Notes under the pieces: model-generated
What the model saw: the letters and a program-made list of their open reading frames with translations, nothing else
Databases searched by the model: none
What the model was told of the DNA's origin: nothing
Assembly: GCA_902624045.1 (NCBI GenBank)
Contig: CACNVX010000005.1
Span: forward strand, 1-62,743
DNA: 62,743 bases
Reading direction: 5' to 3'
From: an uncultured Pelagibacteraceae bacterium
GTDB lineage: Bacteria; Pseudomonadota; Alphaproteobacteria; Pelagibacterales; Pelagibacteraceae
Shown: piece after piece, positions 13,398-61,230 of the stretch
How positions within the stretch are numbered: the first letter of the stretch is position 1
Layout of the letters: each line of letters begins with the position of its first letter
Program-made: the position numbers and the translations under genes

Positions 13398-13403
13398 CAA
13401 AAA

Positions 13404-13589
13404 GTGAAAAAGAATTTATTTAACTCTGCTTTAAGTAATTCTTCTGATAAGAGCGGCTCACACGAGGGTCAGATAACTTGTGGGCCTTGCTCTTTAGAAG
13501 TCGAAAAAATGCATAGTAAAATAAATAATAGAAAATTATCAGAGATTAAAAAAGACGAGGCTCTAGACATCCTCACTCCTTTTAAATAA
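13404..13589 (+). CDS. Possible 61-residue CxxC small protein in the iron operon
   Basis: A GTG-initiated frame begins six bases after the fbpA stop, and a GGAAG sequence about 10 bases upstream (inside the fbpA end) could be its ribosome site. The protein is hydrophilic, Ser/Lys rich, without a signal peptide, and carries a CGPC motif at residues 26-29 with nearby His and Met. It resembles no family I know and is far too short for a thioredoxin fold. Its placement between fbpA and a hairpin suggests a small metal- or redox-linked protein, but it could be a chance frame. Conservation in related genomes would decide. Confidence 0.45.
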   Translation: MKKNLFNSALSNSSDKSGSHEGQITCGPCSLEVEKMHSKINNRKLSEIKKDEALDILTPFK

Positions 13590-13606
13590 TGATATATTTC
13601 TTTTTA

Positions 13607-13667
13607 GACAGTGCCCACGTCACTCTCCTCTAGGATCTTTACCCTTTCCTAGAAACTGTCGTGGGCA
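13607..13667 (+). terminator. Intercistronic hairpin element with two alternative stems
   Basis: The AT-rich gap before fbpB contains a GC-rich palindromic block. The outer stem pairs 13612-13619 (TGCCCACG) with 13660-13667, enclosing a second hairpin of 13629-13635 with 13647-13653 (TCTAGGA/TCCTAGA). A competing pairing joins GACAGT at 13607-13612 to ACTGTC at 13655-13660 and cannot coexist with the outer stem. Downstream is AT-rich with short T runs. It could act as a leaky terminator or mRNA-stabilising element that keeps fbpA expression above fbpBC. The alternative folds also allow a switch. The function is inferred. Confidence 0.6.
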
Positions 13668-13740
13668 TTAAAAATTTATTTTTCTCACAATACCACTTTG
13701 TCTTTCGAAATATATTTTTTTTTATATAATAAGCCCCAAA

Positions 13741-15360
13741 ATGTTAAAAAACTTAAATATTTGGGTTATATCTTCATTGTTAGTCTCTGTAGGCGTATTA
13801 ATTCCAATTTTAACAGTTTTTTTCAGTTTTTTTGAGGAGACCTCTAATTATTACCAAATATTAAAAGATACTTTTCTTCTAGAGTATATTTTTAATTCTT
13901 TCACACTATTAGTTTGTGTTTTGCTTCTTACTTTTCTAATAGGAACGGCTTGCGCATATATAGTCTCATTTTATAAATTTCCATTTAGCGATTTCTTTAA
14001 ATGGGCACTTATACTATCTTTTGCTGTTCCTCCATATATCTATGCATATTCTTTAACAGCTTTCTTTGAAAATTATGGAACAGCATTTACAATTTTAACC
14101 AACTTATTTGGAGAGGGGGAATATAACAAATATATTCCAAAGTTTGATGGTCGTTTGGGAGCAATATTATCTCTTTCTTTTTCTTTATATGCTTACGTTT
14201 ATATTCTTTCTCGTGCTTCTTTTTTATATCAGTCCCAGAATTTAATTGATCTAGGTAGAAGTTTAGGTTTTTCAAAATTTAAGTCATTATATTCTTTGAT
14301 ATTACCAGCTGCTAGACCAGCAATTGTTGCAGGTTTGTCTCTTGTTGCAATGGAGACTTTAGCTGAATTTGGGGCAGTTGATTTTTTTTCAATAAATACC
14401 TTAACAACCGGAATTTACAATTCTTGGATAACATTTGATGATTTAGCATTTTCAAATCGTTTGTCATTTTTCTTACTAATTTTTATATTTGCATGTTTTA
14501 TAATAGAAAATTTTTCCAGAAAAAAAGCGAGATATCATTTTAATTCAAAAGGTGGTTTTAAACAAAAAGAAAAAATTATTTTAAGAGGAAAGCAATCATT
14601 TTATGCGTTTAGTTTTTGTTTTATTATTTTCTTTTTAAGTTTTTTATTCCCTTTAAGTCAAATGTTATATTGGACTATTAAGTTTCCAGAAAATCTTTAT
14701 GATATTGATATAATCACTCTTACTTTGAATACTGTTTATTTAGTTGTTTTATCAAGTCTCATTCTAATTATATTTTCTCTACTTTCAAATTATGGAAATA
14801 GAGTTTCTAAAAATAAAATTTTAAATTTTTTATCTACAATATCAATTTCAGGTTATGCTATTCCAGGAGTAATTTTAGCAGTAGCATTTATTACTTTTGT
14901 TGCTTGGTTTGATAACAATATAATTAAAACACTTGGTTTTTTGTCTATTAAAAAATTTTTTATTGGTTCAATACTTGGCTTAGTTTTGGTTTACTTTGTT
15001 AGATTTTACTCTTTAGCTTTCAATGGAATAAAGTCAGGATATGAAAAAATTAATATATCTGTTGACGAAAGTTCTTATCTTCTTGGCTACTCAAAGAAAA
15101 AAACTTTTTTAAATATTCATATGCCTCTCTTAAGAAATTCATTGTTGTTTGTAGCTATATTAATCTCTATTGAAATAGTAAGAGAATTGCCAATAACTCT
15201 AATTTTAAGACCATTTAATTTTGAAACATTTGCAACAACAGCTTATATATCTGCTTCAGAGGACTTGTTAGAAGCAGCAGCTGTTCCATCACTTTTTTTG
15301 ATTTTAATTGCAGCAATTTTTATTATGTTTACATCTAAATATATTTTAAGAGAAAAATGA
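13741..15360 (+). CDS. fbpB: Ferric iron ABC transporter permease
   Basis: This 539-residue permease is a fused double unit, as usual for FbpB. It has about 12 membrane segments and two copies of the BPD_transp_1 fold, each with a cytoplasmic EAA-type loop: near residues 175-195 (the DLGRSLGFSKFKSLYSLILPAARP region) and near 435-460. It carries Fe3+ from FbpA across the inner membrane. It overlaps fbpC by four bases (ATGA). No Shine-Dalgarno is visible before the ATG, which follows a long T-rich leader and the hairpin element. Confidence 0.93.
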   Translation: MLKNLNIWVISSLLVSVGVLIPILTVFFSFFEETSNYYQILKDTFLLEYIFNSFTLLVCVLLLTFLIGTACAYIVSFYKFPFSDFFKWALILSFAVPPYIYAYSLTAFFENYGTAFTILTNLFGEGEYNKYIPKFDGRLGAILSLSFSLYAYVYILSRASFLYQSQNLIDLGRSLGFSKFKSLYSLILPAARPAIVAGLSLVAMETLAEFGAVDFFSINTLTTGIYNSWITFDDLAFSNRLSFFLLIFIFACFIIENFSRKKARYHFNSKGGFKQKEKIILRGKQSFYAFSFCFIIFFLSFLFPLSQMLYWTIKFPENLYDIDIITLTLNTVYLVVLSSLILIIFSLLSNYGNRVSKNKILNFLSTISISGYAIPGVILAVAFITFVAWFDNNIIKTLGFLSIKKFFIGSILGLVLVYFVRFYSLAFNGIKSGYEKINISVDESSYLLGYSKKKTFLNIHMPLLRNSLLFVAILISIEIVRELPITLILRPFNFETFATTAYISASEDLLEAAAVPSLFLILIAAIFIMFTSKYILREK

Positions 15361-16421
15361 AAAAAAATAATTTTTTAGAAATAAATAATGTAAATTTCAA
15401 AATTGGTGGAAACACAAAGGTTAAAAATGCTTCATTTTGTATAAAAAACGAAGGAGAAACTTTATGTCTATTGGGCCCTTCAGGAATTGGAAAAACAACA
15501 ATATTAAGAACAATAGCAGGTTTAGAAAAAGTAGACAAAGGTTCGATTTTTTTAAATGGTAAATTGTTATCCTCTAAAGATACCCATATTGAGCCTGAGC
15601 ACCGTAATATATCCCTAGCATTTCAAGATAATAGTCTGTTCCCTCATTTCACAGTTGAAAAAAATATATTATTAGGTGCTGAAAGAAATAAAAATTTAAA
15701 AAGAAAAAAACTTAGTTACAAAGAAATTATAAATTTACTTGATATTTCAAAGATACTTAAAAAGTACCCTCATGAAATTAGTGCAGGTGAAGCTCAAAGA
15801 GCTTCTCTTGCAAGATCTCTGTTAACACAACCTGATCTTTTATTGTTAGACGAGCCACTATCAAATGTTGATCAGAGTTTTAAAGAGGAAATACAAGAAA
15901 GATTAAAAAAAATATTAAGTAAATTAAAAATAACTACTATCATTGTTACTCATGACTCTTATGAAGCTTTTTATTTAGGTAATAAATGCGCAATTATCTT
16001 AGATGGTCAAATACAGCAATTTGACGATCCTTACAATGTTTACCATTTTCCAAATTCAGTTGAGGTGGTCAATTTCTTAAATAGAGGTATTTTAATACCC
16101 GCAAAAGTAACAGGAGAAAATTCACTTGAAAATGATGATCTAGGATTGATTGAAGGTAAATTTATTAAGCATTATCCTAAAGGTTCAAAAGTTCAATTAT
16201 TGTTACAGCCAGAAGATTTAGAGCATGATGATAATAGCAATCTAAAATTAGAGGTTGTTGATAGAAAATTTAGGGGTACAAATTTTATTTATACATTAAA
16301 AACCTTGAGTGAAAAACTTATACCTGTGCTTGTAAATACCCACCACCATGAAATTCACGAAATAAATGATAAGTTTGGGATAAGAAGACCCATCAGGCTA
16401 GAGCATATAGTTTGTTTTTAG
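15357..16421 (+). CDS. fbpC: Ferric iron ABC transporter ATP-binding protein
   Basis: This 354-residue ATPase has Walker A GPSGIGKTT near residue 42, a signature loop ISAGEAQRAS (a variant of LSGGQ), Walker B LLLLDEPLS, and the switch histidine in VTHD. A C-terminal extension of about 110 residues is the TOBE-like regulatory domain seen in FbpC/PotA/MalK proteins. It powers iron uptake through FbpB, with which it shares a four-base overlap. AzlC starts 15 bases downstream but is probably functionally unrelated. Confidence 0.93.
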   Translation: MKKNNFLEINNVNFKIGGNTKVKNASFCIKNEGETLCLLGPSGIGKTTILRTIAGLEKVDKGSIFLNGKLLSSKDTHIEPEHRNISLAFQDNSLFPHFTVEKNILLGAERNKNLKRKKLSYKEIINLLDISKILKKYPHEISAGEAQRASLARSLLTQPDLLLLDEPLSNVDQSFKEEIQERLKKILSKLKITTIIVTHDSYEAFYLGNKCAIILDGQIQQFDDPYNVYHFPNSVEVVNFLNRGILIPAKVTGENSLENDDLGLIEGKFIKHYPKGSKVQLLLQPEDLEHDDNSNLKLEVVDRKFRGTNFIYTLKTLSEKLIPVLVNTHHHEIHEINDKFGIRRPIRLEHIVCF

Positions 16422-16435
16422 TAAAAGGTAATTAG

Positions 16436-17122
16436 ATGTTATCAAAAAAAAAATTATTCACTAAAGGCATGTTAGATATTTTTCCACACATGCTTTCAGT
16501 AATTCCATTTGGGATGATTTGTGGAGCAGTTGGAGTTGAACTTGGTTTCAGCCCATACCTAGTCTATGGAATGTCAATATTAATTTTTGGAGGGGCATCG
16601 CAAATTGTATTTTTGCAGCTCTTATCAGGAGGCGCCTCTAACTTAGTTGCTATCGCATCAGTTGGAATTATTAATTCTAGACATTTACTGTATGGGGCTG
16701 TGTTGTCTGAATATTTAGAAAAATTATCTTTTTTTAAAAAGTTATTAATTTCATATTTTGTTGTAGACCAAGGATTTGCAGAGTCCAATAAATATTTTAA
16801 AAGAAATAAAACTGAAAAATTTTTACATTATCACTTACTTGGTACTGGATGCACTTTGTGGTTCTGCTGGCAAATTGCTACATTAACAGGAATTATATTG
16901 GGTTCATTAGTTCCTGAGGAACTTGGACTAAAATTTGCAATACCGTTGACTTTTATAGCTATTATTGTTCAGGATTTAAAAAAATTAGATCATGTAGTTG
17001 TAATGATAACTTGTGGCTTAAGCTCTTTATTATTTTTTGACGCTCCATTTAAATTATATATTATTATTGCTCCTTTGATTGCACTATTTGTGGCTGCATT
17101 AATATTGAGGTTTAAAAAATGA
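16436..17122 (+). CDS. azlC: AzlC-family amino acid exporter, large subunit
   Basis: This 228-residue membrane protein matches AzlC. It has an early FPHMLSVIPFGMICGAVG stretch, the FGGASQIVFLQLLSGGA segment, and an INSRHLLYGAVLSEYL motif. AzlC pairs with the small AzlD to export branched-chain or related amino acids. The AzlD gene overlaps by four bases, supporting a two-component transporter. It follows fbpC closely and might be read from the same transcript. The substrate is inferred only from the family. Confidence 0.9.
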   Translation: MLSKKKLFTKGMLDIFPHMLSVIPFGMICGAVGVELGFSPYLVYGMSILIFGGASQIVFLQLLSGGASNLVAIASVGIINSRHLLYGAVLSEYLEKLSFFKKLLISYFVVDQGFAESNKYFKRNKTEKFLHYHLLGTGCTLWFCWQIATLTGIILGSLVPEELGLKFAIPLTFIAIIVQDLKKLDHVVVMITCGLSSLLFFDAPFKLYIIIAPLIALFVAALILRFKK

Positions 17123-17436
17123 CCTGGACAACGATTATTATAGCTGGAATTCTAACATATTTAACTCGTATGACTATGATTGCGCTAGTTAGCAGAGATT
17201 TTTTAGGAAGTAGAATTAAAACAGTCTTAGAATACGTGCCTTCAGCAGTATTTCCAGCAATAATATTTCCTGGAATATTTATGAATGATTTTGGAGCATT
17301 TATAGAAATTAATGATCCTAAAATTTTTGGAGCATTAGTAGCTGTAATTGTGGGCTATTTTTCAAAAAATATTATTTCAACTATTTTGGCTGGACTATTC
17401 TCTTATTGGTTTTTAATATTTGTGATTTTCAGTTAG
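17119..17436 (+). CDS. azlD: AzlD-family exporter small subunit
   Basis: These 105 residues have three to four membrane segments, an N-terminal ILTYLTRMTMIAL stretch (the Arg after the first helix is conserved in AzlD) and an EYVPSAVFPAIIFP motif. It forms the small subunit of the AzlCD amino acid exporter, and its start overlaps azlC by four bases. Its 3' end overlaps the convergent beta-lactamase-fold gene by eight bases, leaving no room for a separate terminator. Confidence 0.9.
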   Translation: MTWTTIIIAGILTYLTRMTMIALVSRDFLGSRIKTVLEYVPSAVFPAIIFPGIFMNDFGAFIEINDPKIFGALVAVIVGYFSKNIISTILAGLFSYWFLIFVIFS

Positions 17437-18112
17437 CACCCAATCTTATATTACTACGTATGTTGCTATCCATTAATGCTGGTTTTGATAAATTAAGTTT
17501 TGACATTATTTCGGCATATTCATCAGCGCTATTTACTTGAAGCCTTGGATTTAATTTTTTTTCTTTTCCGATAGTACTGACTAATTTACCATTATAATCA
17601 TGACCTGGATAAAGCAACGTGTCATCTGGAAGTCTAAGTAATTTATTAAATAAAGAATTATAAGCATCTTCAGAGCTACCATTTTGAAAATCGGTTCTAC
17701 CTGTCCCATTAATTAAAAGAGTGTCTCCAGAAAATAAATATTTGTCCATTAGGAAACTATAGCTGTCAGATGTATGTCCTGGTGTATATATTGCTTTAAT
17801 TTCTATCTGATCAATTTTTACTTTTTCACCGTCTTTTACTTTAATTTCAACTGCATCAGCAGGTGTATGCTCTCCCATAATTGTTGAACAATTAGTCACT
17901 TTTTTTAACTTTGATGCACCAGTTATATGATCTGCATGGATATGCGTATCTATTACTTTAACAAGTTTAAGATCTAGTTCTTGAAGTAAACTTATATATT
18001 TTTCAACATTCTCAATCACAGGATCAATAATAACTGCTTCGCGACCTTTTGCCGATGCAATTAAATAAGTATATGTCGAAGATTTTTGATCAAATACTTG
18101 TTTAAAAATCAT
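17429..18112 (-). CDS. ETHE1-like persulfide dioxygenase (metallo-beta-lactamase fold)
   Basis: This 227-residue protein has the metallo-beta-lactamase motif THIHADHITG (about residues 56-65), further metal ligands in TPGHTSDS and FSGDTLL, and a late YPGHDY. The internal GTGRTDFQNGS loop and the NPRL segment near the end are typical of ETHE1-type sulfur dioxygenases. These oxidise glutathione persulfide to sulfite with a single Fe2+. A hydroxyacylglutathione hydrolase (GloB) is the main alternative, but the GTGRTDF loop favours ETHE1. It is a single leftward gene between azlD and the divergent DUF4396 gene. Confidence 0.85.
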   Translation of the reverse strand: MIFKQVFDQKSSTYTYLIASAKGREAVIIDPVIENVEKYISLLQELDLKLVKVIDTHIHADHITGASKLKKVTNCSTIMGEHTPADAVEIKVKDGEKVKIDQIEIKAIYTPGHTSDSYSFLMDKYLFSGDTLLINGTGRTDFQNGSSEDAYNSLFNKLLRLPDDTLLYPGHDYNGKLVSTIGKEKKLNPRLQVNSADEYAEIMSKLNLSKPALMDSNIRSNIRLGAN

Positions 18113-18134
18113 TTTTCATTAATATCAAATTATA

Positions 18135-18578
18135 GTGAATATCTCTACACCTACATTTCATTGGTCTTGCCAACATACTTGGAAAAGAAGTGCGAAAAAT
18201 ACAGCTTGGTGTGTTTTAGGTTGTGCTATAGGTGATTTTGGAACAATATTATTTTTTCAATTAACTGAAATTCCTTTTCCTGTTTTGGGAATTATGACTT
18301 TAGCAATAATAAATGGTTTAATAACAAGTGTTATTTTAGAAACAATAATTTTAATGACACAAAATTTTAATTTTATTAATGCATTAAAAACAGCTTGTGG
18401 AATGAGTCTAATTTCAATGATTAGCATGGAAATTATGATGAATTTAACGGACTATTTATTAACTGGTGGAGCTATATTAACTTGGTGGGTAGTTCCAATA
18501 ATGTTACTTGTAGGTTTTTTAACTCCTTGGCCATATAATTACTGGAGATTAAAAAAATTTGGGATCGCTTGTCATTAA
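18135..18578 (+). CDS. DUF4396 membrane protein
   Basis: This 147-residue membrane protein with four predicted helices starts at GTG, 22 bases from the divergent sulfur dioxygenase. The N-terminus has FHWSCQHTWKRSAKN. The C-terminus ends in a PWPYNYWRLKKFGIACH segment, a recognisable DUF4396 signature. Conserved His and Cys at both ends could bind metal. DUF4396 proteins are of unknown function and often sit near metal-handling genes. Here it is followed by DoxX and cupredoxin genes, which suggests a copper or redox role, but this is inference. Confidence 0.75.
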   Translation: MNISTPTFHWSCQHTWKRSAKNTAWCVLGCAIGDFGTILFFQLTEIPFPVLGIMTLAIINGLITSVILETIILMTQNFNFINALKTACGMSLISMISMEIMMNLTDYLLTGGAILTWWVVPIMLLVGFLTPWPYNYWRLKKFGIACH

Positions 18579-18599
18579 AAATATATGATTAATAGATAA

Positions 18600-19010: not shown

Positions 19011-19013
19011 TCT

Positions 19014-19523: not shown

Positions 19524-19540
19524 TAGATTATTTCAGAATT

Positions 19541-19586: not shown

Positions 19587-19607
19587 ATAAATTGCCTTCC
19601 TGGCATT

Positions 19608-20685: not shown

Positions 20686-20699
20686 TTTTTTATCGATAA

Positions 20700-25901: not shown

Positions 25902-26003
25902 TGTATAATATGTATAATTTCTAAATATAAAATTAAACGATAATGTTGATCTCAAAATTCATATATGATTAAATTTCAAAAAAACATAAACGAGAGGAAG
26001 ATA

Positions 26004-27020
26004 ATGTTTAAACTTATATCTAAAACTATAGCAGCTGTAGCTATTGTTTCAGTTGCTTTATTTGGCTCTGCAAATGCAAAGACTTTAAAGATTGAAACTC
26101 ACTTTACAGCTAGTTCACCAAATGGTGAAGTTGCTGCTCAATTCGCTAAAAACGTGGAAATGTTTTCTGGTGGAAGCTTAAAAGTAGAAATGTTCTACTC
26201 ATCATCAGTAACAGGAAAATCTGCTGAGGTGTTTAACTCTGCACAAACTGGAATTATCGATTGTGATATGACTGGTGCTGGTTACCAAACAGGTAAAAAT
26301 GCAGCGTTCCAATTCGCAGGTGATGTAATGGGTGGATACGATAACCCATATCAACAATATGAATTCTTGAATTACCCAGGAGCTCAAGAGGCTGTTGATG
26401 CACTTTATAACAAATATGGTATGACTTTAATTGGTTGGTGGATACCAGGACATGAGTCTCTAATTTCTAGCAAACCAATTCCAGATGTTGCATCTATAAA
26501 AGACTTTAAATTTAGATCACCTCCAGGAATGGAAAGTATGATCTTTACTGCACTGGGTGCTAAGCCAATCGTAATGGACTTTGGTGAAGTTCCAACTGCT
26601 TTACAAACAGGTCTAATTGATGGTGCTGACTATTCATCTCTAGCAACTAACTATGCAGGTGGACACTATGAGCAAAATAAATATGCTACATACCCAGGTT
26701 TCCATTCTATGCCAGCTGACCACTTAGCTTGTAATACTAAAGTATGGAAAAAGCTAAAACCTCATGAAAGAGGAGCAATGAAAGCAGGTATTGAGATTGC
26801 TGGAAGAACTATCACTAGCTTAGTAGAGAGAAAAAACGCTGAAGCGGTTAAAGCTTTAAATGAAATGGGCGTAACTCTTCACGACTGGTCTAGAGAAGAT
26901 AGACTTAAATTCAGACAAGCTGCGCTTGCTGCTTGGGAAGAATGGAAGACTAAATCTCCAGAAGCTGCAGCACTTATTGAGATACACAAAGCTTATATGA
27001 AAGCTAACGGTATCATGTAA
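26004..27020 (+). CDS. dctP: TRAP transporter solute-binding protein (DctP type)
   Basis: This is a 338-residue exported protein. The ATG at 26004 follows a strong GAGAGGAAG ribosome site and opens a typical signal peptide ending SANA before KTLKI, so a longer upstream frame is rejected. The mature part shows the DctP fold: an early HFTASSPNGEVAAQFAKN, the PDVASIKDFKFRSPPG segment with the conserved Arg for a carboxylate, and DFGEVPTALQTGLIDGADY. TRAP ligands are usually organic acids. The sugar-acid enzymes on both sides make a sugar acid or its lactone the likely ligand. A strong hairpin separates it from dctQ. Confidence 0.9.
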   Translation: MFKLISKTIAAVAIVSVALFGSANAKTLKIETHFTASSPNGEVAAQFAKNVEMFSGGSLKVEMFYSSSVTGKSAEVFNSAQTGIIDCDMTGAGYQTGKNAAFQFAGDVMGGYDNPYQQYEFLNYPGAQEAVDALYNKYGMTLIGWWIPGHESLISSKPIPDVASIKDFKFRSPPGMESMIFTALGAKPIVMDFGEVPTALQTGLIDGADYSSLATNYAGGHYEQNKYATYPGFHSMPADHLACNTKVWKKLKPHERGAMKAGIEIAGRTITSLVERKNAEAVKALNEMGVTLHDWSREDRLKFRQAALAAWEEWKTKSPEAAALIEIHKAYMKANGIM

Positions 27021-27033
27021 TAAAAAAATTTTG

Positions 27034-27053
27034 AAGGGCCTGAAAAGGCCCTT
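27034..27053 (+). terminator. GC-rich hairpin between TRAP binding protein and membrane genes
   Basis: Seven pairs, AAGGGCC (27034-27040) with GGCCCTT (27047-27053), enclose a six-base loop. A short AT-rich stretch ending in TTTTT (27066-27070) follows, and the dctQ start comes soon after. The position suits partial termination or 3'-end protection that raises dctP mRNA above dctQM. Confidence 0.75.
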
Positions 27054-27076
27054 TGAATTAGTTAAATTTTTACTCA

Positions 27077-27646
27077 ATGATCGATAAAGAATTACAAGAA
27101 CAAAATGAAAAAGTTGCGAGTAAAGATGATTTTCCAATAAATTGGATTGATAGAATTTCCTTATTTTTAAGCCATACAATCAAATATTTAATTCCCGTAA
27201 TTGTACTTGTAATGATGTACGAAATTTTTATGAGGTATATATTATTTAAACCAACCTTGTGGGCTAATGAATTATGTTTATGGTTGGCAGGGGTTTGTTA
27301 TTTAGTAGGTGGAATATACGCTACTAGATTAAGAAGCCATATTAGAATAGTGTTATTGTATGATTGGGTCAGTAGACCGACACAGAGAATATTTGATTTA
27401 ATAAGTACCATCATTATTGTTCTTTTTGCAGCAGCTGTAATTTATGGAGGTATGGAAGATGCATACAGATCATTCATAAATTGGGAGAGATTTGCTACTT
27501 ATTGGGATCCACCAATTCCTGCAACTATGAAGCCACTTACACTTATATGTGTATTTCTTATTGCCGTTCAATCTGTAAATAATTTGATTATTGATTGGAG
27601 AAATCCTAAAGAAAAACAATACGACCCTTCTAAAGAATTGAAATAA
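27077..27646 (+). CDS. dctQ: TRAP transporter small membrane subunit
   Basis: These 189 residues include four hydrophobic segments after a polar N-terminus of about 30 residues. The motif ANELCLWLAGVCYLVGGIYATR (split over helix 2) and the following SHIRI are hallmarks of DctQ. It forms the membrane complex with DctM, whose start is two bases after its stop. No Shine-Dalgarno precedes the ATG, and the gene follows the intercistronic hairpin, consistent with lower expression than the binding protein. Confidence 0.9.
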   Translation: MIDKELQEQNEKVASKDDFPINWIDRISLFLSHTIKYLIPVIVLVMMYEIFMRYILFKPTLWANELCLWLAGVCYLVGGIYATRLRSHIRIVLLYDWVSRPTQRIFDLISTIIIVLFAAAVIYGGMEDAYRSFINWERFATYWDPPIPATMKPLTLICVFLIAVQSVNNLIIDWRNPKEKQYDPSKELK

Positions 27647-40930: not shown

Positions 40931-41263
40931 TTAATTATTACCTAACAGGTTGACCATTAAAACACCAACAATAATGAACACTAAACCAATTAATGAAAAT
41001 AAATTAGGTATTTGATTAAATCTAATTACCCCAACAACTACTGTTGCTATAATTGTTAGACCCGCAAAGGAGGCATAGGTTATTCCCATTGGAATATTTT
41101 TCATTACCAATGAAAGAGCGTACATGCATAAAACAATTGTGATTGCAGTGATTATACTTGGAAATAAAAGTGTAAATCCTTCAGCACTTTTTGCATAACT
41201 ATTTGAGGTCACTCCTAACAACACAGCTATACCTAGGAACAAATATGAAGTGGCAAGACTCAT
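40931..41263 (-). CDS. Second SMR-family protein
   Basis: This 110-residue four-helix protein is paralogous to the one at 40363-40698. It shares the GVTSNSYAKSAEGFTLLFPS, ITYASFAGLTIIATVVVG and FNQIPN segments. As in its partner, the usual helix-1 Glu is not evident. Paired SMR genes commonly make asymmetric heterodimers with opposite topology. The intervening DUF2798 gene is unusual. Confidence 0.82.
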   Translation of the reverse strand: MSLATSYLFLGIAVLLGVTSNSYAKSAEGFTLLFPSIITAITIVLCMYALSLVMKNIPMGITYASFAGLTIIATVVVGVIRFNQIPNLFSLIGLVFIIVGVLMVNLLGNN

Positions 41264-41301
41264 TTAATAATCATAAATGAAATCTCGCCAAATTAATATA
41301 A

Positions 41302-41622
41302 CTATTTTGGCATTGGAGTAGCACCAGTTTCTAAACTTATGATTTTACCGTTATCATATTTATAAACTGCCATTACCGCCTCAACATTTCCGTCATCAAA
41401 AGTTACAATTGAATGATGAACACCAACCTCATCATTTTCATAAACAATTCTAACCTTATCTTGATTAATGTCACCGCTCATTGCCCATTTGATAACATCA
41501 CCTTTTGTTAAAACATTTCCTGACTTATGCATTGTAAACTTAAAATCGTCATGCAAAAGATCATTCATTACCGCCTCATCTTTATTTTTTAATGCAGCAC
41601 TATATTTTTCTAGTATAGACAT
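41302..41622 (-). CDS. Small NTF2/SnoaL-like protein
   Basis: This 106-residue protein has a cone-shaped NTF2-like pattern: an N-terminal helix (YSAALKNKDEAVMNDLLHDDF), then alternating strands ending VEAVMAVYKYDNGKI. The fold serves as a small-molecule binding or isomerising scaffold. A GAAAGGG ribosome site is visible upstream. It lies 35 bases downstream of the fuconate dehydratase gene on the same strand. The function is unknown. Confidence 0.7.
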   Translation of the reverse strand: MSILEKYSAALKNKDEAVMNDLLHDDFKFTMHKSGNVLTKGDVIKWAMSGDINQDKVRIVYENDEVGVHHSIVTFDDGNVEAVMAVYKYDNGKIISLETGATPMPK

Positions 41623-52088: not shown

Positions 52089-53117
52089 TTATCTCGCGGT
52101 TTTAAATTCTTTCCAAGTTCTTATCAAGACAGGTGCTAGTAGAATAGCTATACCAATAATTGTCATCATTGAAGTAGCTGCAGCAGAACCAAATAATATC
52201 ACTTCTTCGTTAACTAAATTGTCGTATATTAACCACGAAAGAGACTGCGCGCTCCCTTCAGCACTGAACCCTATTATTGGTTCAAAAACTCTGAAATTAT
52301 CCATTAAAGAAATTAAAGCTACAAAAGTAACTACTGGATAAATATGTGGTAAAACAATATGTTTAATTCTCTGCAATCTTGATGCTCCATCAATAATTGC
52401 TGCTTCAATAGGTTCTTGAGGTACCGTTTGAAGCGCTGCATAGAAAACAACAAAAGCGAATGGGGAATGATGCCAGATTCCATAAATTATGATGGTTATC
52501 CATGTCAATGTTTTAGAAGATTTTAGTGATAAATAGGGATCATTCATTAAGTTTTGGATGTTTGCACCAATTATACCTTGAGAATCAATCATCCAAAATA
52601 ATACTAACGATCCTACCAATGGTGTCACAATCATTGGTAAAATTGTACCAAAGATTAGAGGTCCTCTAATTTTTCTAGCAACTGCATTTAAACTTAATGC
52701 AATAATAAATCCTAACAGGAGTACATTTGGAGTAACAAATAAACAGTAAGTTAAAGTAAATATTAGAGCTTTGTAAAAGGGGAGATTAGTCACTTGATCT
52801 ACAAATGCCCCAAAACTTTCAGTTTCATTCCAAAATTTTTTTATTTCATCAACTGCTAGATGATTTCTGTCTGTATAAGTCCCAAAGCCATTGAATTTTC
52901 CAAGAGGTTTTGCATCTCTTATTTTTGTAGTTTCTTCATTATCAACTACAATTGAAACAGTGCATCCAAAAGGATCACACTTTTTAACTTCTTTTACAAC
53001 TTGATCATGTTGTGCGTAAAAAGATTGAATCCCGGTTGATATGATTGGTAGCCCAATAAATAGGATCATGGCTAAACCTGTCGGTAAAAAAAACCAAAAA
53101 AATGTTTTATTAGGCAT
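52089..53117 (-). CDS. ABC sugar-type transporter permease, MalF class
   Basis: I place the start at the ATG at 53117 (PNKTFFWFFLPTG), giving 342 residues. A GTG further up, at 53150, lies inside the intercistronic hairpin and is rejected. The protein has about six helices and an EAA loop (PIEAAIIDGASRLQRIKHIVLP). A periplasmic loop of about 75 residues after the first helix contains two cysteines (CDPFGC) and is longer than in most MalF-class permeases of this size. It pairs with the MalG-class protein two bases downstream. Confidence 0.9.
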   Translation of the reverse strand: MPNKTFFWFFLPTGLAMILFIGLPIISTGIQSFYAQHDQVVKEVKKCDPFGCTVSIVVDNEETTKIRDAKPLGKFNGFGTYTDRNHLAVDEIKKFWNETESFGAFVDQVTNLPFYKALIFTLTYCLFVTPNVLLLGFIIALSLNAVARKIRGPLIFGTILPMIVTPLVGSLVLFWMIDSQGIIGANIQNLMNDPYLSLKSSKTLTWITIIIYGIWHHSPFAFVVFYAALQTVPQEPIEAAIIDGASRLQRIKHIVLPHIYPVVTFVALISLMDNFRVFEPIIGFSAEGSAQSLSWLIYDNLVNEEVILFGSAAATSMMTIIGIAILLAPVLIRTWKEFKTAR

Positions 53118-53130: not shown

Positions 53131-53152
53131 AAGTGGGGAAAAATCCCCACTT
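53131..53152 (-). terminator. Intercistronic hairpin between binding-protein and permease genes
   Basis: AAGTGGGG (53131-53138) and CCCCACTT (53145-53152) pair perfectly around a six-base loop. On the coding (minus) strand it begins 14 bases after the binding-protein stop and ends 13 bases before the permease ATG. The loop is T-rich on that strand, and no long T tract follows. It probably protects the upstream mRNA end or causes partial termination so that the binding protein is made in excess. Confidence 0.7.
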
Positions 53153-53166: not shown

Positions 53167-54387
53167 TTATAGAAAGCCTTGTTCTTTAGCTTTACTGATA
53201 TAAGCAGCCTCAACATCTTTCAATGCTTGTTCAGCCGATTCTTTACCTTGTAAAAACTCAACAATTTCACTTCCTAATGCACCATGCATCAAACCCATTT
53301 GTGGTAACATAGGATATGGTTTTGCTCCCATTTTTACAGCTTCAATTACACCAATAGATTTTGGACCTGGTACAAATCCTTCTACTAACCAAACAGCTTG
53401 ATCAGCAGCATCAGCAACCATTTTCTTATTTGATGCTGCATGCGCTAAAGCTCTAAATGTTGCTTCTGCATCAGCATCAGATCTATTTTTTGCAAGTGTA
53501 AAACCATCCCACCATAAAGTTGCTGCTGGAATATTTCCACCCCCAACAGTTGCAGGACCAGTTAATTTCGTTGCAGCAGTTATTTTAGCATCTCCTTCAT
53601 CATCTAAAAGAGTACCAGATCTTGAAGCCCATAATGTCATCAAAGCAACATTACCAGACTCCCATTCAACTTTAATTGCTTCACTATCATGAGTTAAATA
53701 ATCCGGGTTACTTAGTTCAGATAACTTTTTTAACATGTTTAAAGTAGCAACGCCTTTTGCATTATTAATATTAGGTTGTGCACTTCCAGCTTTAAAGAAT
53801 TCTCCACCATGCCCAATAAACATATTTACAAATTCTTCTGCTAGGTTCCAACCAGCTTTGTATGCAGCTGCATAAGGGTATTTCATTTTTCCTGAAGCTC
53901 TAATTTTTTCAGATGCTGCAACAACTTCTTCGTATGTTTTTGGTACAGCTATACCCATATCTTTCAAGACATCTTCTCTGTAGTACAAGTGTTGAGTATT
54001 AGCCATAAATGCTACAGCCATTACTTTTCCATCAATTGTAATTAATTGAGAGTCTTGTATTCCTTTTCCATATTTTTTTACAAGATCATCTAATGGTCTA
54101 ATTAAATCTTGGTTCATCAAAGGAACAATGGAACTGTTTGCTGCAATTCTAGCTGAGAATTCAGAAGGGTTTGCAGTTAGCGCTGGCACAGCGATTTTAT
54201 TGTGCTCTGATGAATGTGTCACTTTAAAATCAGCACTTCCTTTACATTGTTTAGAAGTTTCAACGAAAGTTCTTAATGCAGGAAAATCATTAGCCAAAAT
54301 ATTTATTGAACCACTTTTAATGTTACAATCTGCATATGCAGAAGTTCCAAAAAGTAGAAACAATAAAGTAACTAGTATTTTTCTCAT
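53167..54387 (-). CDS. ABC transporter solute-binding protein (sugar-type)
   Basis: This 406-residue exported protein has a signal peptide ending TSAYA before DCNIK. It is a family 1 extracellular binding protein, with a SINILANDFPALRTFVE start, VKVEWESG-like and LWASRSG segments in the middle, and an aromatic TLWWDGF stretch typical of sugar or polyol sites. The ligand is unknown. The operon order is binding protein, hairpin, MalF, MalG and HAD-like. Confidence 0.9.
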   Translation of the reverse strand: MRKILVTLLFLLFGTSAYADCNIKSGSINILANDFPALRTFVETSKQCKGSADFKVTHSSEHNKIAVPALTANPSEFSARIAANSSIVPLMNQDLIRPLDDLVKKYGKGIQDSQLITIDGKVMAVAFMANTQHLYYREDVLKDMGIAVPKTYEEVVAASEKIRASGKMKYPYAAAYKAGWNLAEEFVNMFIGHGGEFFKAGSAQPNINNAKGVATLNMLKKLSELSNPDYLTHDSEAIKVEWESGNVALMTLWASRSGTLLDDEGDAKITAATKLTGPATVGGGNIPAATLWWDGFTLAKNRSDADAEATFRALAHAASNKKMVADAADQAVWLVEGFVPGPKSIGVIEAVKMGAKPYPMLPQMGLMHGALGSEIVEFLQGKESAEQALKDVEAAYISKAKEQGFL

Positions 54388-55599: not shown

Positions 55600-55603
55600 T
55601 TTA

Positions 55604-56566
55604 TTATTTCATTAATAATTGTTTCCAAATAGCAACTTCATCAAATAACACCCATTCTCTAATAATATTTCCATCAACAATTTCAGCATGATTAATTCCC
55701 ATTATAAAAATATTTTTATTAGTTGCTTGCTCATATTCATTGGTATTATTAGCGTGCAATCCATTTAAAAACCATCTTATTGATACTTTGCTATTTTTAC
55801 CTTCTTCCTCTAGCCAGCCAACGTGTTCAATAGAAAAATTAATATTTTTGAGTGCATTTTTTATAGAATTCCAAAATTTTGAGATATCCTCCCTTCCATG
55901 ACCTATTTTATTACCTGGCCAGAAAATACTTGCAGCTCTTGCATAATTAGCAAAATTATAATCTTCTAAAAAAATATTTTTTAAAATTTGAGAATATTTT
56001 TCACCTACACTATTTTTTTCAAAACTAAATGGCGTATATTTAGATTTCATATCGGAATTTAAATCAAATATTTTTTTTGCTTTGGTTTCTCCACCTTCTT
56101 TTTCTATTATCTGTTTAGCAAATTCTTTAGGTGTGTATCCTAGTTGTCTTACCATTGCACCTTGATCTCTTACAATCCATTCATCATAAACTTGATTGTT
56201 TTTGCAAGCACAATCTGCAATTACTCTATAATAAATATCTTTTTTGGTTGGCTTTCCGTAAAAGCCATCTCCTAAGTGAGTACCTTTACTAAGTATTCTG
56301 TGAGATGAATGATAACCTTCTTCATCATTTCCATTCCAAATAACTTCTTCTCCTAAAAGTTGACGATTTGGAAATTCTTTTAGTGTTGCAAAAGTTGCTT
56401 CTATTACAGGTTTATTTCCATAAGTTACTCCAAAGGGAGATCTCACTGGTATATCTTTAGTGTAAAATTCTGATATTGAGTTAACATCCTTTCCCTCCCA
56501 AATTTGCTTTGTAATTTTTAGAATGTAATCTGGAAAGTCCTTATATTTATTGTCAAAGCCCCTCAT
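55604..56566 (-). CDS. Double NTF2/SnoaL-like protein
   Basis: I place the start at the ATG at 56566 (MRGFDNKYKDF), which overlaps the stop of the upstream bicupin by one base. A longer frame begins ten codons earlier, inside that gene. The resulting 320 residues contain two SnoaL-like domains in tandem: roughly residues 15-150 (WEGKDVNSISEFYTKDI region) and 190-315 (ASIFWPGNKIGHGREDI region). Relatives are called ester cyclases or polyketide cyclases, but most are uncharacterised. Its partner at 57561-58646 has the same two-domain plan. Confidence 0.78.
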   Translation of the reverse strand: MRGFDNKYKDFPDYILKITKQIWEGKDVNSISEFYTKDIPVRSPFGVTYGNKPVIEATFATLKEFPNRQLLGEEVIWNGNDEEGYHSSHRILSKGTHLGDGFYGKPTKKDIYYRVIADCACKNNQVYDEWIVRDQGAMVRQLGYTPKEFAKQIIEKEGGETKAKKIFDLNSDMKSKYTPFSFEKNSVGEKYSQILKNIFLEDYNFANYARAASIFWPGNKIGHGREDISKFWNSIKNALKNINFSIEHVGWLEEEGKNSKVSIRWFLNGLHANNTNEYEQATNKNIFIMGINHAEIVDGNIIREWVLFDEVAIWKQLLMK

Positions 56567-57510
56567 TAAATTTGGGAGACACAATTTAAAAAACAATCTT
56601 GCTGTTCATTAATTTTTATACCTAAGTTTGAATTTATAGGAACTGAAAAAGTATCTTTTGGTTTTAAATATATTTCAGTATTATTTATTGTCACTTTCCA
56701 ATCTCCAGTTTGTGAAAATAATATTGTGGGTTTATTAAATTTTATATTTTTGACATTACAATTTTTTGCCCTTAGTAAACTTAAATTAAAACCAGTATTT
56801 TGATTAATTATTGGTTTAAAATTTTGATTATTAAAGCTATTTCCGAGCACTTGAGCTAAAAACAATCCTGGCAAGATTTCTTGCTCAAAATTTTTTCTAT
56901 TTTCAAATTTACAAATAAATTTTGAGAGCTCATCTAACTTATAATCATCAAACTTTTTAATTTCCTCTAAGTCTATTGGTTTTAAAAGTTCTTTACCATC
57001 AGGTATTTTTTCATTTGATAAATCAATTAAAGAATTATCATCAAGTAATGCCATTCCAGTTTCTTTTGCTTTTTCCAAGACACTAGGCACCCAAGTAATT
57101 ATTCCTGGATCATCACCCCCAAGCACAACAAACATTAATCCCTCTTTATCACCTGCATTTTCAAATCCTCTGAACATATTTGTTGGCATCGAAATTATAT
57201 CTCCAGCACTTAATATGGTTTGATCTTTTCCATTCGCACCCCAATAAAATTTCCATTTACCTGAATAAATCAAAAAAACTTCTGCAGTAGTGTGACTATG
57301 CAATCCAGATCCATTTTTTGGCATGGCAGAAACAGCACCTAAATTAAAACTATGCGGCATTGCAATTTTGACGGATTGTCCTGTATCTTCTGCAACACCG
57401 GGACCTACAATTGAATAATTTTTTCTATCTCTGTGACCCTTAAGCTTACCTTCTACAAAGGGTAGGGTGCTTGGGACTAGATCTTCAAATTTTGCTAAAC
57501 GATTATTCAT
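56566..57510 (-). CDS. Bicupin protein
   Basis: This 314-residue protein has two cupin folds. The N-terminal one has HSHTTAEVFLIYSG followed by GDIISMPTNMFRGFENAG. The C-terminal one is shorter, with a DTFSVPINSNLGI segment. Metal-binding His residues are obvious only in the first. Bicupins include dioxygenases, isomerases and sugar-binding proteins. It is coupled by a one-base overlap to the SnoaL-like gene downstream and lies 50 bases from a divergent SnoaL-like gene. Confidence 0.8.
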   Translation of the reverse strand: MNNRLAKFEDLVPSTLPFVEGKLKGHRDRKNYSIVGPGVAEDTGQSVKIAMPHSFNLGAVSAMPKNGSGLHSHTTAEVFLIYSGKWKFYWGANGKDQTILSAGDIISMPTNMFRGFENAGDKEGLMFVVLGGDDPGIITWVPSVLEKAKETGMALLDDNSLIDLSNEKIPDGKELLKPIDLEEIKKFDDYKLDELSKFICKFENRKNFEQEILPGLFLAQVLGNSFNNQNFKPIINQNTGFNLSLLRAKNCNVKNIKFNKPTILFSQTGDWKVTINNTEIYLKPKDTFSVPINSNLGIKINEQQDCFLNCVSQI

Positions 57511-57560
57511 ATTTTTTTACAGTATATTTTGTGATACTAGATTTAAACAATTAATTATAT

Positions 57561-58646
57561 ATGCAAATAGAACAATTTGATACAGGCCTAAAGGGTCAAG
57601 AGAAAGTAGAGAAATTAGTAATAACTCCTAATGAAAATTATAAATATAAACAACTAGTAAGAGGTTATTTAAGCAAGATAGTAAACGAAGGTATTTCAAA
57701 GCTTGATGAAAATTTAGAAAATACGTTTTCCAAAAATGTTAGACTGAATTGTTTCTATCCTTTAAATGAATTTTCTGGAATTGAAAAATATAAAGAAAAA
57801 TTTTGGAAACCATTATTAAATTCATTTCCCGACCTAGAAAGAAGAGAACAATTAGTAATTGGTGGAACTTTTAGAGATAAAATTCAAATTGGCTCAATTT
57901 CTATTTTATCTGGAATATTCAAAAACTCTTGGCTAGGTATTAAGCCTAATAATAAAATGGTAAATTTAAAATGTTGTGAAATTCACGAAATAAAGAATAA
58001 TAAAATTATTGAGAGTTATATTTTAATAGATTTAATAGATTTATTAATTCAAACAGGAGAAAATCCATTAAATACCTCAAGAGGATCTGAAGGTAATTGG
58101 TTGAATCCAATTAATACAGATGGTGTAAATTTTTTTGAAAAAAATATGGAAATTTCACAAGCTAGTTTAGAGCAATCTCTAATTATGCAGAGAAGCCTAA
58201 ATATAAAGCCTGAATTAGAAATTTCTTCTGATACGGAACTTAAAGAAAAATTATTAAATCATCCACAAAGTGATTATTGGCACAATAAAATGATTTGGTA
58301 TGGACCAAGTGGAATTGGTACAGCAAGATCCTTGGAGGGATTTGTGGATAATCATCAATTACCTTTTAGAAAAACTTTTAAAGAAAGAAATTATTGGAAA
58401 CTTGGTCACTATTGTGAGTTAGGAGATGGTAAATTTTCATTAACAGCTGGTTGGAATAGCATTCAGGCAGTTTATGGATCAGATGATTGGCTTGGTTATA
58501 AATCGGAAAATCAAAAAGTAACAATGAGAGTTATGGATTTTTATCATCATGATGAAGGAAAAATTCGTGAAAATTGGGTGCCAATTGATATAATTCATAT
58601 ACTAAAACAAATTGGAGTAGATGTTCTTAAAAACATAAAAAATTAA
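57561..58646 (+). CDS. Double NTF2/SnoaL-like protein (divergent partner)
   Basis: This 361-residue protein has two SnoaL-like domains, about residues 30-180 (ending YILIDLIDLLIQTG) and 240-355 (starting WHNKMIWYGPSGIGTA and ending WVPIDIIHILKQIG). Both close with the helix-strand pattern of polyketide-cyclase-like NTF2 folds. It resembles the 55604-56566 protein in layout but is only distantly similar in sequence. It is followed directly by the ABC ATPase, so it is probably made with the transporter. The enzyme activity is unknown. Confidence 0.78.
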   Translation: MQIEQFDTGLKGQEKVEKLVITPNENYKYKQLVRGYLSKIVNEGISKLDENLENTFSKNVRLNCFYPLNEFSGIEKYKEKFWKPLLNSFPDLERREQLVIGGTFRDKIQIGSISILSGIFKNSWLGIKPNNKMVNLKCCEIHEIKNNKIIESYILIDLIDLLIQTGENPLNTSRGSEGNWLNPINTDGVNFFEKNMEISQASLEQSLIMQRSLNIKPELEISSDTELKEKLLNHPQSDYWHNKMIWYGPSGIGTARSLEGFVDNHQLPFRKTFKERNYWKLGHYCELGDGKFSLTAGWNSIQAVYGSDDWLGYKSENQKVTMRVMDFYHHDEGKIRENWVPIDIIHILKQIGVDVLKNIKN

Positions 58647-59702
58647 ATGGCTAATATAAAATTTACAGGGGTGCACAAATCATTTGGATCTAACAAGATT
58701 ATAACTGATTTTAATCTTTTAGGAAAAGAAGATGAGTTTCTTGTTTTGGTAGGACCATCAGGTTGTGGAAAATCAACTTTACTAAGAATGATTGCAGGAT
58801 TAGAAAAAATAGATGAAGGTGAAATATTTATTAATGATCAAAAAATAAATGAACTACACCCCTCAAAACGTCAGACAGCAATGGTTTTTCAATCTTACGC
58901 GCTTTATCCCCATATGAATGTATATGAGAACATGTCTTTTGGATTAAAAATTGAAAAAAGACCAAAAGAAGAAATTAATACAAAAGTAATGCAAGCAGCA
59001 AAAATTCTTAAAATCGAAGAACTACTTGAAAGAAAACCAAAACAATTATCTGGAGGTCAAAGACAAAGAGTGGCAATAGGACGGGCTATAACAAGAAATC
59101 CGAAAATATTTTTATTTGACGAACCTTTGTCTAATTTAGATGCAGCTTTAAGAGCTGAAATGAGAGTAGAAATATCAAAATTACATAATCAAATTAAAAC
59201 TAATATGATTTACGTTACTCACGACCAGGTAGAGGCAATGACATTAGCAGATAGGATAGTTATTTTAAATCAGGGAAATATTGAGCAAGTTGGAACTCCT
59301 GAGGAAATTTATAATGATCCAGCTAATATTTTTGTGGCTCAATTTATAGGTACACCAAAAATGAATATTTTGGAAATTGACGAAAAAAATATAATCTCTG
59401 AAAACACAATTAAATTATTAGGAAATGATATCAAATTTGATAAATTTAAACTTAAAAAATCAAAACACTTTGTTGGTATCAGACCAGAGCATTTAAAACC
59501 AAGTCAAAGTAGTCAATTTACTTTCAATCCCGAGATAGAGTTAATAGAAAATTTAGGGAATGAGAAAATTACTTATATGAAAAAAGATGAATATCAATTA
59601 AGTGCAAAAATACCAAGCAACATTGAGATTAGTGACACAATGGGTTTTGATATGAATGATATTTTTGTTTTTGACATAGATGGAAAGAGAGTTAATTCCT
59701 AG
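58647..59702 (+). CDS. ABC transporter ATP-binding protein, MalK/UgpC class
   Basis: This 351-residue ATPase has Walker A GPSGCGKST near residue 38, signature LSGGQRQR, Walker B IFLFDEPLS and the switch His in YVTHD. A C-terminal TOBE/MalK-type regulatory domain starts near residue 240. It starts on the base after the SnoaL-like stop. It is the only sugar-type ABC ATPase in the window and may drive both this system (58.6-62.7 kb) and the minus-strand system lacking its own ATPase (51-54 kb). Confidence 0.93.
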   Translation: MANIKFTGVHKSFGSNKIITDFNLLGKEDEFLVLVGPSGCGKSTLLRMIAGLEKIDEGEIFINDQKINELHPSKRQTAMVFQSYALYPHMNVYENMSFGLKIEKRPKEEINTKVMQAAKILKIEELLERKPKQLSGGQRQRVAIGRAITRNPKIFLFDEPLSNLDAALRAEMRVEISKLHNQIKTNMIYVTHDQVEAMTLADRIVILNQGNIEQVGTPEEIYNDPANIFVAQFIGTPKMNILEIDEKNIISENTIKLLGNDIKFDKFKLKKSKHFVGIRPEHLKPSQSSQFTFNPEIELIENLGNEKITYMKKDEYQLSAKIPSNIEISDTMGFDMNDIFVFDIDGKRVNS

Positions 59703-59782
59703 TACAACTTATAATTGTTAAATATAATTTATTCAAACTTATTAAATAAGAAATTCTATGTTTTGTGGTCATAGCTGATATG

Positions 59783-59812
59783 TGCGAGTTTTCACTTTGC
59801 GAAACAATCGCA
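59783..59812. promoter_or_regulatory. Leader hairpin or operator before a binding-protein gene
   Basis: In the 149-base gap before a solute-binding-protein gene, TGCGA (59783-59787) and TCGCA (59808-59812) pair outside an inner pairing of GTTTTC with GAAAC. The result is a hairpin of about ten pairs with a seven-base loop in an otherwise very AT-rich leader. Centred CG dinucleotides would also suit a LacI-type operator. Two copies of ATATTTAAAT follow at 59820-59829 and 59833-59842, and then a GGGGGAAA ribosome site. A regulatory role is inferred. Confidence 0.5.
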
Positions 59813-59851
59813 ATTCAATATATTTAAATAAAATATTTAAATGGGGGAAAT

Positions 59852-61183
59852 ATGAAGAATATAATTAAGTTTTTCTGCGTAATATCATTTTTTATAACAA
59901 ATGTTGTTTATGCAGATATAAAGTTTTGGACTACAGAAGTTCAGCCTGCCCGAATGGCTAAGCAAGAGGAAATGGCAAAAGCTTTTGAAGCTAAAACAGG
60001 AATAAAAGTAGAGGTGATTCCTGTAGAAGAAAAAGATTTGGGAACTAGAGCTACAGCAGCTGCTGCTGCAGGTGATTTACCAGATGTGATCTATCATACT
60101 TTACAATATGTGCTACCATGGGCTGAAGCAGGAATTTTAGATGTGGACGCTAACAATGATGTTGTTAAAGACCTAGGTAAAGACACATTTGCACCAGGTG
60201 CACTTAATATGGCAAAAAAAGGCTCAAAGATTGCAGCAGTTCCAGTTGATGGATGGACACAAATGGTTGTTTATAGAAAAGACCTTTTTGATAATGCAGA
60301 TCTAGCACCACCAACAAGTTATGCAAACATTGTTGCTGCAGTTGAAAAATTATCTAAACAAAATGGTATGTTTGGTTTTGTTGCTGCAACAAAAACTGAC
60401 GAAAATTTTATGAGTCAGGTCCTAGAGCATGTTCTTTTAGCAAACGGTGTTAATATTGTTAAAAAGGGTGGTATTAAAAAACAAGGTAAGAAATTAAAAG
60501 AAGCATTAGAGTTTTACAAAGTAATTGCTAAAGCAAGTCCTCCAGGAGAACTTTACTGGAAACAATCTAGAGCACTTTACTTTGCGGGTAAAACGCCAAT
60601 GATTATTTGGTCTCCATTCATTATGGATGAGCTTGCTGGTTTAAGAGACTCAGCACCACCAACGATTAACAGTGATCCAACATCACCTGAACTAGCATCT
60701 AAAACTGGTTTCATTACTAATTTTAGTGGTCCTAGTAATAAAAAAGGTGCTGCATGGGCAGACGTTAGATATTTTGGTATAACAGCTGATGCTGATACTG
60801 ATGAAGCTAAACAATTTATCATGTACTCAATGGATGAAGGTTACACAAGTACCCTGTCTATTGCTCCAGAGGGTAAGTTTCCTGTAAGAAGAGGAAATTC
60901 AAGTGACCCTGAGGCTTTTACAAAAGCTTGGAGCAAACTGCCAGTTGGAGTTGATAGAAAAGCTCCTCTGTCAGATCTTTATGACCCAGACGTTATAAAC
61001 AACATCGTAGCTGGTTTAGATACAGCAAACAGATGGGGTGTAAAAGAAGGGGAATTATCAAGGGCATCAAAAGTCATAAATTCTCAATTTTTAAACAGAA
61101 TTACTAGACTTTATATTGATGATCAAATTGACGTTGATGAAGCAGTTGATATGATTAACAAAGCGTTAGCTAAGTTCAATTAA
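59852..61183 (+). CDS. ABC transporter solute-binding protein (sugar-type)
   Basis: This 443-residue exported protein has a signal peptide of about 21 residues ending NVVYA, and a GGGGGAAA ribosome site. The mature part starts with IKFWTTEVQPARM. It contains GIKVEVIPVEEKDLGTRATAAAAAGDLPDV-type features of family 1 binding proteins, and aromatic residues in VDGWTQMVVYRKDLF near the ligand site. The ligand is probably a sugar or polyol but is not determined. A strong terminator-like hairpin follows its stop. Confidence 0.92.
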   Translation: MKNIIKFFCVISFFITNVVYADIKFWTTEVQPARMAKQEEMAKAFEAKTGIKVEVIPVEEKDLGTRATAAAAAGDLPDVIYHTLQYVLPWAEAGILDVDANNDVVKDLGKDTFAPGALNMAKKGSKIAAVPVDGWTQMVVYRKDLFDNADLAPPTSYANIVAAVEKLSKQNGMFGFVAATKTDENFMSQVLEHVLLANGVNIVKKGGIKKQGKKLKEALEFYKVIAKASPPGELYWKQSRALYFAGKTPMIIWSPFIMDELAGLRDSAPPTINSDPTSPELASKTGFITNFSGPSNKKGAAWADVRYFGITADADTDEAKQFIMYSMDEGYTSTLSIAPEGKFPVRRGNSSDPEAFTKAWSKLPVGVDRKAPLSDLYDPDVINNIVAGLDTANRWGVKEGELSRASKVINSQFLNRITRLYIDDQIDVDEAVDMINKALAKFN

Positions 61184-61195
61184 TTTAAATTTTTT

Positions 61196-61229
61196 AAAAA
61201 AGCGGATAGTATGAATTATCCGCTTTTTT
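61196..61229 (+). terminator. Strong terminator hairpin ending at the permease start codon
   Basis: A 13-pair stem joins 61196-61208 (five A then AGCGGATA) with 61217-61229 (TATCCGCT then five T), and two further T residues sit at 61229-61230. This is the strongest intrinsic-terminator pattern in the window. It begins 13 bases after the binding-protein stop, and its T tract runs to the base before the permease ATG at 61231. Read-through transcripts would carry the hairpin over the ribosome-binding region. Confidence 0.85.
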
Positions 61230-61230
61230 T

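Follow-up and report, generated by a model that had tools for sequence, protein, structure and literature searches.

A near-obligate hairpin behind solute-binding-protein genes in Pelagibacteraceae and its probable role at the 3' end of the binding-protein message

Why should the solute-binding-protein (SBP) gene of an importer operon be followed by a strong RNA hairpin before the membrane components begin? This question is raised by a 62,743-nucleotide (nt) contig of an uncultured Pelagibacteraceae bacterium (CACNVX010000005.1, assembly GCA_902624045.1), which was analysed as a whole and is called the window below. It has a GC content of 31% and belongs to a genome of 1.15 Mb in 53 contigs that is 83% complete. 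Few cells on Earth outnumber those of SAR11, whose expression is devoted in large part to binding proteins. By Pfam, the window contains four SBP genes, belonging to an FbpA-type ATP-binding cassette (ABC) importer, a tripartite ATP-independent periplasmic (TRAP) importer and two further ABC importers. A preliminary description of the window had proposed that a hairpin behind the SBP gene is a genome-wide rule. Our analysis suggests that in Pelagibacteraceae a short GC-rich hairpin follows the SBP genes of ABC and TRAP importers, where it probably serves as the 3' terminus of the SBP message and sets an excess of SBP over the pump, a reading to which we give a probability of about 75%.

The four inverted repeats reported beforehand, at 13607-13667, 27034-27053, 53131-53152 and 61196-61229, were all found at or close to these positions. 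Hairpins 2 to 4 lie directly 3' of an SBP stop codon, with folding energies of -17.0 to -17.8 kcal/mol. Hairpin 2 (27030-27057, plus strand, -17.8) separates the TRAP gene dctP (25965-27020, Pfam DctP) from dctQ, which encodes the small membrane subunit (27077-27646, Pfam DctQ). On the minus strand, hairpin 3 (53131-53152, GC core 53150-53133, -17.0) follows an SBP_bac_1 gene (53167-54387) and has no U-tract (4 U in 9 nt); the permease gene behind it (BPD_transp_1, 52089-53117) most likely starts at ATG 53117, rather than being the longer open reading frame (ORF) that begins with GTG. Hairpin 4 (61196-61229, plus strand, -17.4) follows an SBP_bac_8 gene (59852-61183) and has the shape of an intrinsic terminator, with a GC core at 61202-61223, a T7 tract (8 U in 9 nt) and, directly 3' of the tract, the ATG at 61231 of the next permease gene (BPD_transp_1, 61231-62490). 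The arrangement differs at the FbpA-type gene fbpA (12321-13397, plus strand, Pfam SBP_bac_8 and SBP_bac_6), whose product shares 94-97% identity with its ten best named relatives, all of them Pelagibacteraceae, which places the window in SAR11. Here a 61-amino-acid (aa) ORF with a CxxC motif (13404-13589, plus strand) stands between the SBP gene and hairpin 1 (13605-13674, plus strand, -26.4). This hairpin scores 91.6 bits with the Rfam family potC RNA (RF01751), whose gathering score is 44, the match beginning 15 nt 3' of the small ORF, and the permease gene follows at 13741-15360 (plus strand, BPD_transp_1).

Within the window, four of 54 co-directional junctions folded at -16 kcal/mol or lower in the 80 nt after the stop codon. 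Three of these were behind SBP genes, fbpA being outside this set because its hairpin sits further out. The earlier statement that no comparable hairpin occurs at other gaps was nearly right, the exception being the junction 3' of a DUF4440/SnoaL-like gene at 41302. The hairpin there (about 41252-41290, minus strand, -18.3) folds over the start codon of the following ORF; it looks like another kind of element, perhaps one for translational control of that ORF.

For a count in the rest of the genome, SBP genes were located by family (DctP, SBP_bac_1, 3, 5 and 8, Peripla_BP_6, OpuAC, NMT1 and Bmp), and the stretches around them together with the window amounted to 30% of the genome. Genes were called by a simple scheme, and the sequence from -10 to +80 at every stop codon was folded, so that the fold window was independent of the called gene starts. 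A hairpin of -16 kcal/mol or lower within 80 nt was detected at 20 of 21 co-directional SBP junctions but at only 4 of 224 others (Fisher p = 2e-24); the single failure was fbpA, where the hairpin comes after the small ORF. An initial count had given 15/16 versus 9/229, after which five of the nine apparent controls were identified by Pfam as SBPs and moved; these five had been examined because of their hairpins, so the reassignment was not blind. SBP genes have longer downstream gaps than other genes, and when only gaps of at least 40 nt were counted, the values were 19/20 for SBP junctions and 2/57 for the others (p = 8e-15). Compared with 1,744 windows of the same sequence, 23 of 24 SBP genes fell in the lowest 2%. 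Three SBP genes at convergent gene ends (in L050, L055 and L062) also had a hairpin.

The four non-SBP junctions at -16 or lower lay behind a GYD gene, a GcvT-like gene, the gene at 41302 and an S-methyltransferase gene overlapping at its end with the gene that follows. Non-SBP convergent gene ends reached this value in 2 of 82 cases, one of which was the reverse face of an SBP hairpin, and strong intrinsic terminators seem to be rare outside SBP genes. One further ORF (L061, 9454-10500) matched Peripla_BP_6 in the genome search and no Pfam family as first cut. The whole ORF has 394 aa, is convergent to its neighbour and adjoins on its other side a gene read as rsmI, from which we presume that it encodes an LpoA-type protein; this reading kept it from being counted among the SBPs. 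The fold 3' of it is -12.1, and when it is included, 23 of the 25 SBP-fold genes in the sample have the hairpin.

A congener with a complete genome of 1,456,888 bp was sampled evenly, with 20 stretches, one per 70 kb, that represent 27% of the genome. Thirteen of 375 testable gene ends were at -16 or lower, and eight of these belonged to SBP genes, including those for PBP_like_2 and NMT1_3 proteins. All eight were first met in the list of strong hairpins, and the SBP query set used with phmmer contained six of them; seven SBPs of the sample were matched by a non-self query, and all seven had the hairpin, including one that lay at the edge of a stretch and whose score was added afterwards. The five other strong ends belonged to genes for HU, Amt, a porin, a redoxin-like protein convergent to amt and a COX15-like protein, the last two labels being our own reading without Pfam. 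Behind the COX15-like gene, which overlaps its neighbour, the strong fold is a palindrome. The HU and amt genes stand in a row on the minus strand (L141, 7715-9432), each with a strong hairpin 3' of it. In a ribosomal-protein stretch of 29 junctions, with gene identities read by us, none was at -16 or lower (lowest -15.7), indicating that high expression alone is insufficient for the element.

We examined three SBP families across relatives. For dctP within the same family, 29 loci were available and two without a whole ORF (L081 and L083) were left out; 24 of the 27 evaluable loci were at -16 or lower and all 27 at -13.0 or lower. The three that fell short were L073 (-14.3), L087 (-15.1) and L090 (-13.0), while L088 reached -17.4 with the correct ORF choice. 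For a potD-like SBP, 30 of 80 matching genomes were fetched and two loci were too short. In the remaining 28 genomes of the genus, own genome included, a hairpin of -16.8 or lower was always present, whereas the next gene end was at -8.8 or weaker in all 26 loci that had one. For fbpA with its small ORF, a fold of -18.5 or lower was found in 78 of 78 loci using 60-nt windows, two of the 80 loci being unread as their gap ended at the first permease match. The proposed genome-wide rule was supported in these families as well as in the 30% and 27% samples, and equal hairpin frequency at other junctions, the outcome that the preliminary description had named as speaking against its rule, was not seen.

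Pairing was also examined by covariation. In the potD set, 100% of cells were paired and 15 had changed on both sides, and none of 500 shuffles was as high on either measure. In the potC-like set, the values were 99.0% and 28, again with none of 500 shuffles as high. Further pair types were not above the shuffles (419/500 and 104/500 as high, respectively), and slid partners paired in 28-65% of cells; the shuffles ignore kinship. In both hairpins tested, pairing is kept while the sequence changes.

The anatomy of the element was compared over 32 SBP hairpins from the two genomes. The distance from the stop codon to the GC core had a median of 20 nt and an interquartile range (IQR) of 15-25 nt, far enough for a terminating ribosome not to cover the core. 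The 9 nt 3' of the core included 7 or more U in 18 of the 32 hairpins compared with 21 of 948 background 9-mers, and these 18 resemble intrinsic terminators. The spacing to the next start was obtained for 19 of the 21 co-directional SBP genes of the own genome, fbpA and L056 742 being left out. In 13 of these 19 operons, no more than 35 nt separate the core from the next start, and because this leaves little space for a promoter behind the core, the 13 pump genes most likely depend on read-through.

The position of the hairpin, its strength, its preference for SBP genes and, in two cases, the pairing kept amid sequence change were established directly. In the mechanism that we propose, RNA polymerase would terminate part of the time at hairpins with a U-tract and would otherwise read through. 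Where the U-tract is missing, the long message would be cut downstream, and 3' exonucleases would trim it back until the hairpin stops them. By either route, a stable SBP-only mRNA would accumulate, and the pump genes, most of which have little promoter space behind the hairpin, would be made at a lower level, so that the excess of binding protein over pump would be hard-wired. The common denominator would be a protected 3' end behind the SBP message, and at fbpA, potC RNA would be the form that this 3'-end element takes behind the SBP gene and its small partner ORF. A stabilising or partly terminating role, as suggested beforehand, is plausible in that it fits the anatomy.

Several observations weigh against this proposal. 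With 4 U at most in the 9 nt, eleven of the 32 hairpins are improbable as classical terminators, so that no single mechanism accounts for all; two of these eleven (fbpA and L056 742) are unsure, as the hairpin finder took an inner or weaker stem. In 6 of the 19 operons, at least 60 nt lie 3' of the hairpin, which is space for a separate promoter. The genes for HU, Amt and the porin in the congener, and the GYD and GcvT-like genes in the own genome, carry equal hairpins, and the claim that only SBPs have the element is weakened by them. In addition, dctP in some AT-rich small Alphaproteobacteria has no such hairpin.

The hairpins might instead be full terminators, with the SBP genes as separate transcription units and the pump genes under promoters of their own. 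The 18 U-tracts, the room behind the hairpin in six operons and the same hairpin at convergent SBP gene ends agree with this idea, whereas in 13 of 19 operons the next start is too close for a promoter and leader unless the promoter overlaps the hairpin or the SBP gene, and 11 hairpins have no U-tract; we consider full termination unlikely. That the hairpin marks abundant mRNAs generally, SBPs merely being the most abundant, appears quite unlikely. HU, Amt and porins are likely abundant proteins, and their genes in the congener sample carry the hairpin, but the ribosomal-protein stretch, as we read its genes, has none at -16, and SBP genes of many transporters have one regardless of their likely expression.

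An action on the downstream gene, by hiding its ribosome binding site, would be suggested by the several operons in which the core ends 7-9 nt before the start codon, and by hairpin 4, which reaches the ATG. Overall, however, the distance to the next start ranges from 7 to 205 nt, whereas the SBP stop lies at a fairly constant distance (IQR 15-25 nt), and SBP genes without a co-directional downstream gene also have the hairpin, which makes this explanation very unlikely. Chance has a negligible probability: the gaps behind SBP genes are indeed longer, but an effect of gap length was rejected by the gap-matched count (19/20 versus 2/57), and the covariation also speaks against it. We also rejected the idea that the hairpins are one repeat family, as the stems differ among the transporters of one genome and only a single potC match was found in the own genome. 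AT-rich composition as the cause was rejected as well, since dctP has no hairpin in four small genomes (L293, L295, L297 and L299) from two families, with a locus composition of 32-34% GC.

A 3'-end hairpin that sets SBP excess thus remains our preferred reading, and its reach was examined outside Pelagibacteraceae. Outside the family but within the class, the fold behind dctP ranked among the lowest 5% of its locus in 19 of 30 cases. Among class members with genomes of 2.0 Mb or less, this was so in 10 of 28, two of 30 loci having given no ORF. These class loci were best-scoring matches and not a random draw. In Escherichia coli K-12, 9 of 18 tested SBP genes, picked by hand, had an equally low-ranking strong fold behind them, which is not nearly all as in SAR11, and for osmF and artI at least, the fold lies inside the next gene. 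The element is common in bacteria and near-obligatory in Pelagibacteraceae. A stem-loop also lies between dctP and dctQ of Rhodobacter capsulatus, for which we found no paper.

Related systems have been published, and the comparisons made here refer to the accessible passages of each source. In a clostridium, 20.7-96.1% of transcripts are terminated at stem-loops that follow SBP genes, and the same arrangement has been suggested for E. coli (PMC9045158). The clostridial case resembles ours in the stem-loop between SBP and transporter genes, similar energies and the expected excess of SBP message; a stem-loop in this position is found at the 20 of 21 co-directional SBP junctions counted above, and at fbpA after the small ORF. 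U-tracts range from full to hardly present in both, with at least 7 U in 18 and 4 or fewer in 11 of the 32 SAR11 hairpins. It differs in concerning cellulolytic clostridia and ABC importers only, with Northern blot and reporter evidence, whereas SAR11 adds TRAP importers and nearly every sampled SBP gene, on the basis of sequence. Stabilisation by the malE hairpin and protective hairpins in E. coli operons are recounted in PMC5927463. The malE-malF case shares with ours a hairpin 3' of the SBP cistron, and about a third of the SAR11 cases likewise have no U-tract. That study excluded junctions with a terminator motif, whereas 18 of 32 SAR11 hairpins have a U-tract; a stable hairpin at the cistron 3' end applies to our class, but the lack of a U-tract to 11 of 32 only and not to the class as a whole. 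Stem-loops at the 3' ends of selected cistrons in Clostridium and Bacillus also set stoichiometry, with ABC transporters among the predicted cases; processing-site maps are reported for that system (PMC4423207), whereas the SAR11 element is described here from its sequence. PMC8219983 was also among the literature compared, likewise in part.

Hairpin-set SBP excess is, as a principle, already published for clostridia (PMC9045158) and malE (PMC5927463), as far as the accessible passages go. A SAR11 report of the SBP-hairpin rule was not found in the literature searched, which covered few subscription journals, and the accessible passages of PMC2704228, in which GC-rich intergenic regions of P. 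ubique were screened, do not contain such a rule. As far as this literature shows, the new points are the near-obligate SBP-hairpin rule for SAR11 and the reinterpretation of potC RNA. A near-obligate SBP element offers a sequence-level handle on transporter stoichiometry in a genome with few regulators, and the rule predicts 3'-end positions in existing metatranscriptomes. It also explains the orphan Rfam motif potC as one case of a general pattern.

Rfam types potC RNA as cis-regulatory, and it is listed as "Marine only" in a table in the accessible part of PMC2864571. Hairpin 1 is a member by score. It differs from the Rfam type in its place 3' of an SBP gene and small ORF, an arrangement found in 18 of 18 cases. 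Of 297 genomes of the order, 18 (own genome included) had a potC match above the cut-off, all with this SBP upstream and this permease downstream; a 19th match, below the threshold, had neither. Against the own genome, the model gave one match only, at fbpA, and did not match the other SBP hairpins. In relatives, hairpins with other stems stand in the same place behind the fbpA unit. The simpler reading is that potC is the 3'-end element of the fbpA-small ORF unit, with an inner stem and loop that are near-invariant in a subclade. The inner stem and loop (AGGAU-n-UUUACCCUUUCCU) were almost invariant over 36 aligned sequences (window 13605-13674; L145-L213), with an outer stem that covaries, and this near-invariance may reflect a binding partner.

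Orthologues of the small ORF, 55-66 aa long and mostly with GTG as start codon (59/79), were recognised at 78 of the 80 fbpA loci. The pN/pS of the ORF was 0.51 by a crude count, third codon positions were the most variable, and no Pfam family matched it; the CxxC motif was part of the search pattern used. The small CxxC protein is perhaps a partner of the iron-type SBP. A broader idea, which we offer tentatively and regard as possible rather than likely, is that SAR11 uses a hard-wired stoichiometry code: each importer would have its own SBP 3'-end hairpin, selected for pairing and strength rather than sequence, and the ratio of SBP to pump would be fixed by stem and U-tract. potC RNA, in which inner stem and loop hardly vary and which is accompanied by the co-conserved CxxC protein, would then be the version of iron-type importers that gained a binding partner and became regulated.

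potC has been described as part of the 5' leaders of genes for transporters or peroxiredoxins. A location upstream of such genes was found here, with the permease in the window and, in locus L151, a redoxin gene (PF08534, 4356-4901) between the potC hairpin and the permease, which agrees with that description. Gaps of about 865 nt at other fbpA loci suggest the same arrangement as in L151.

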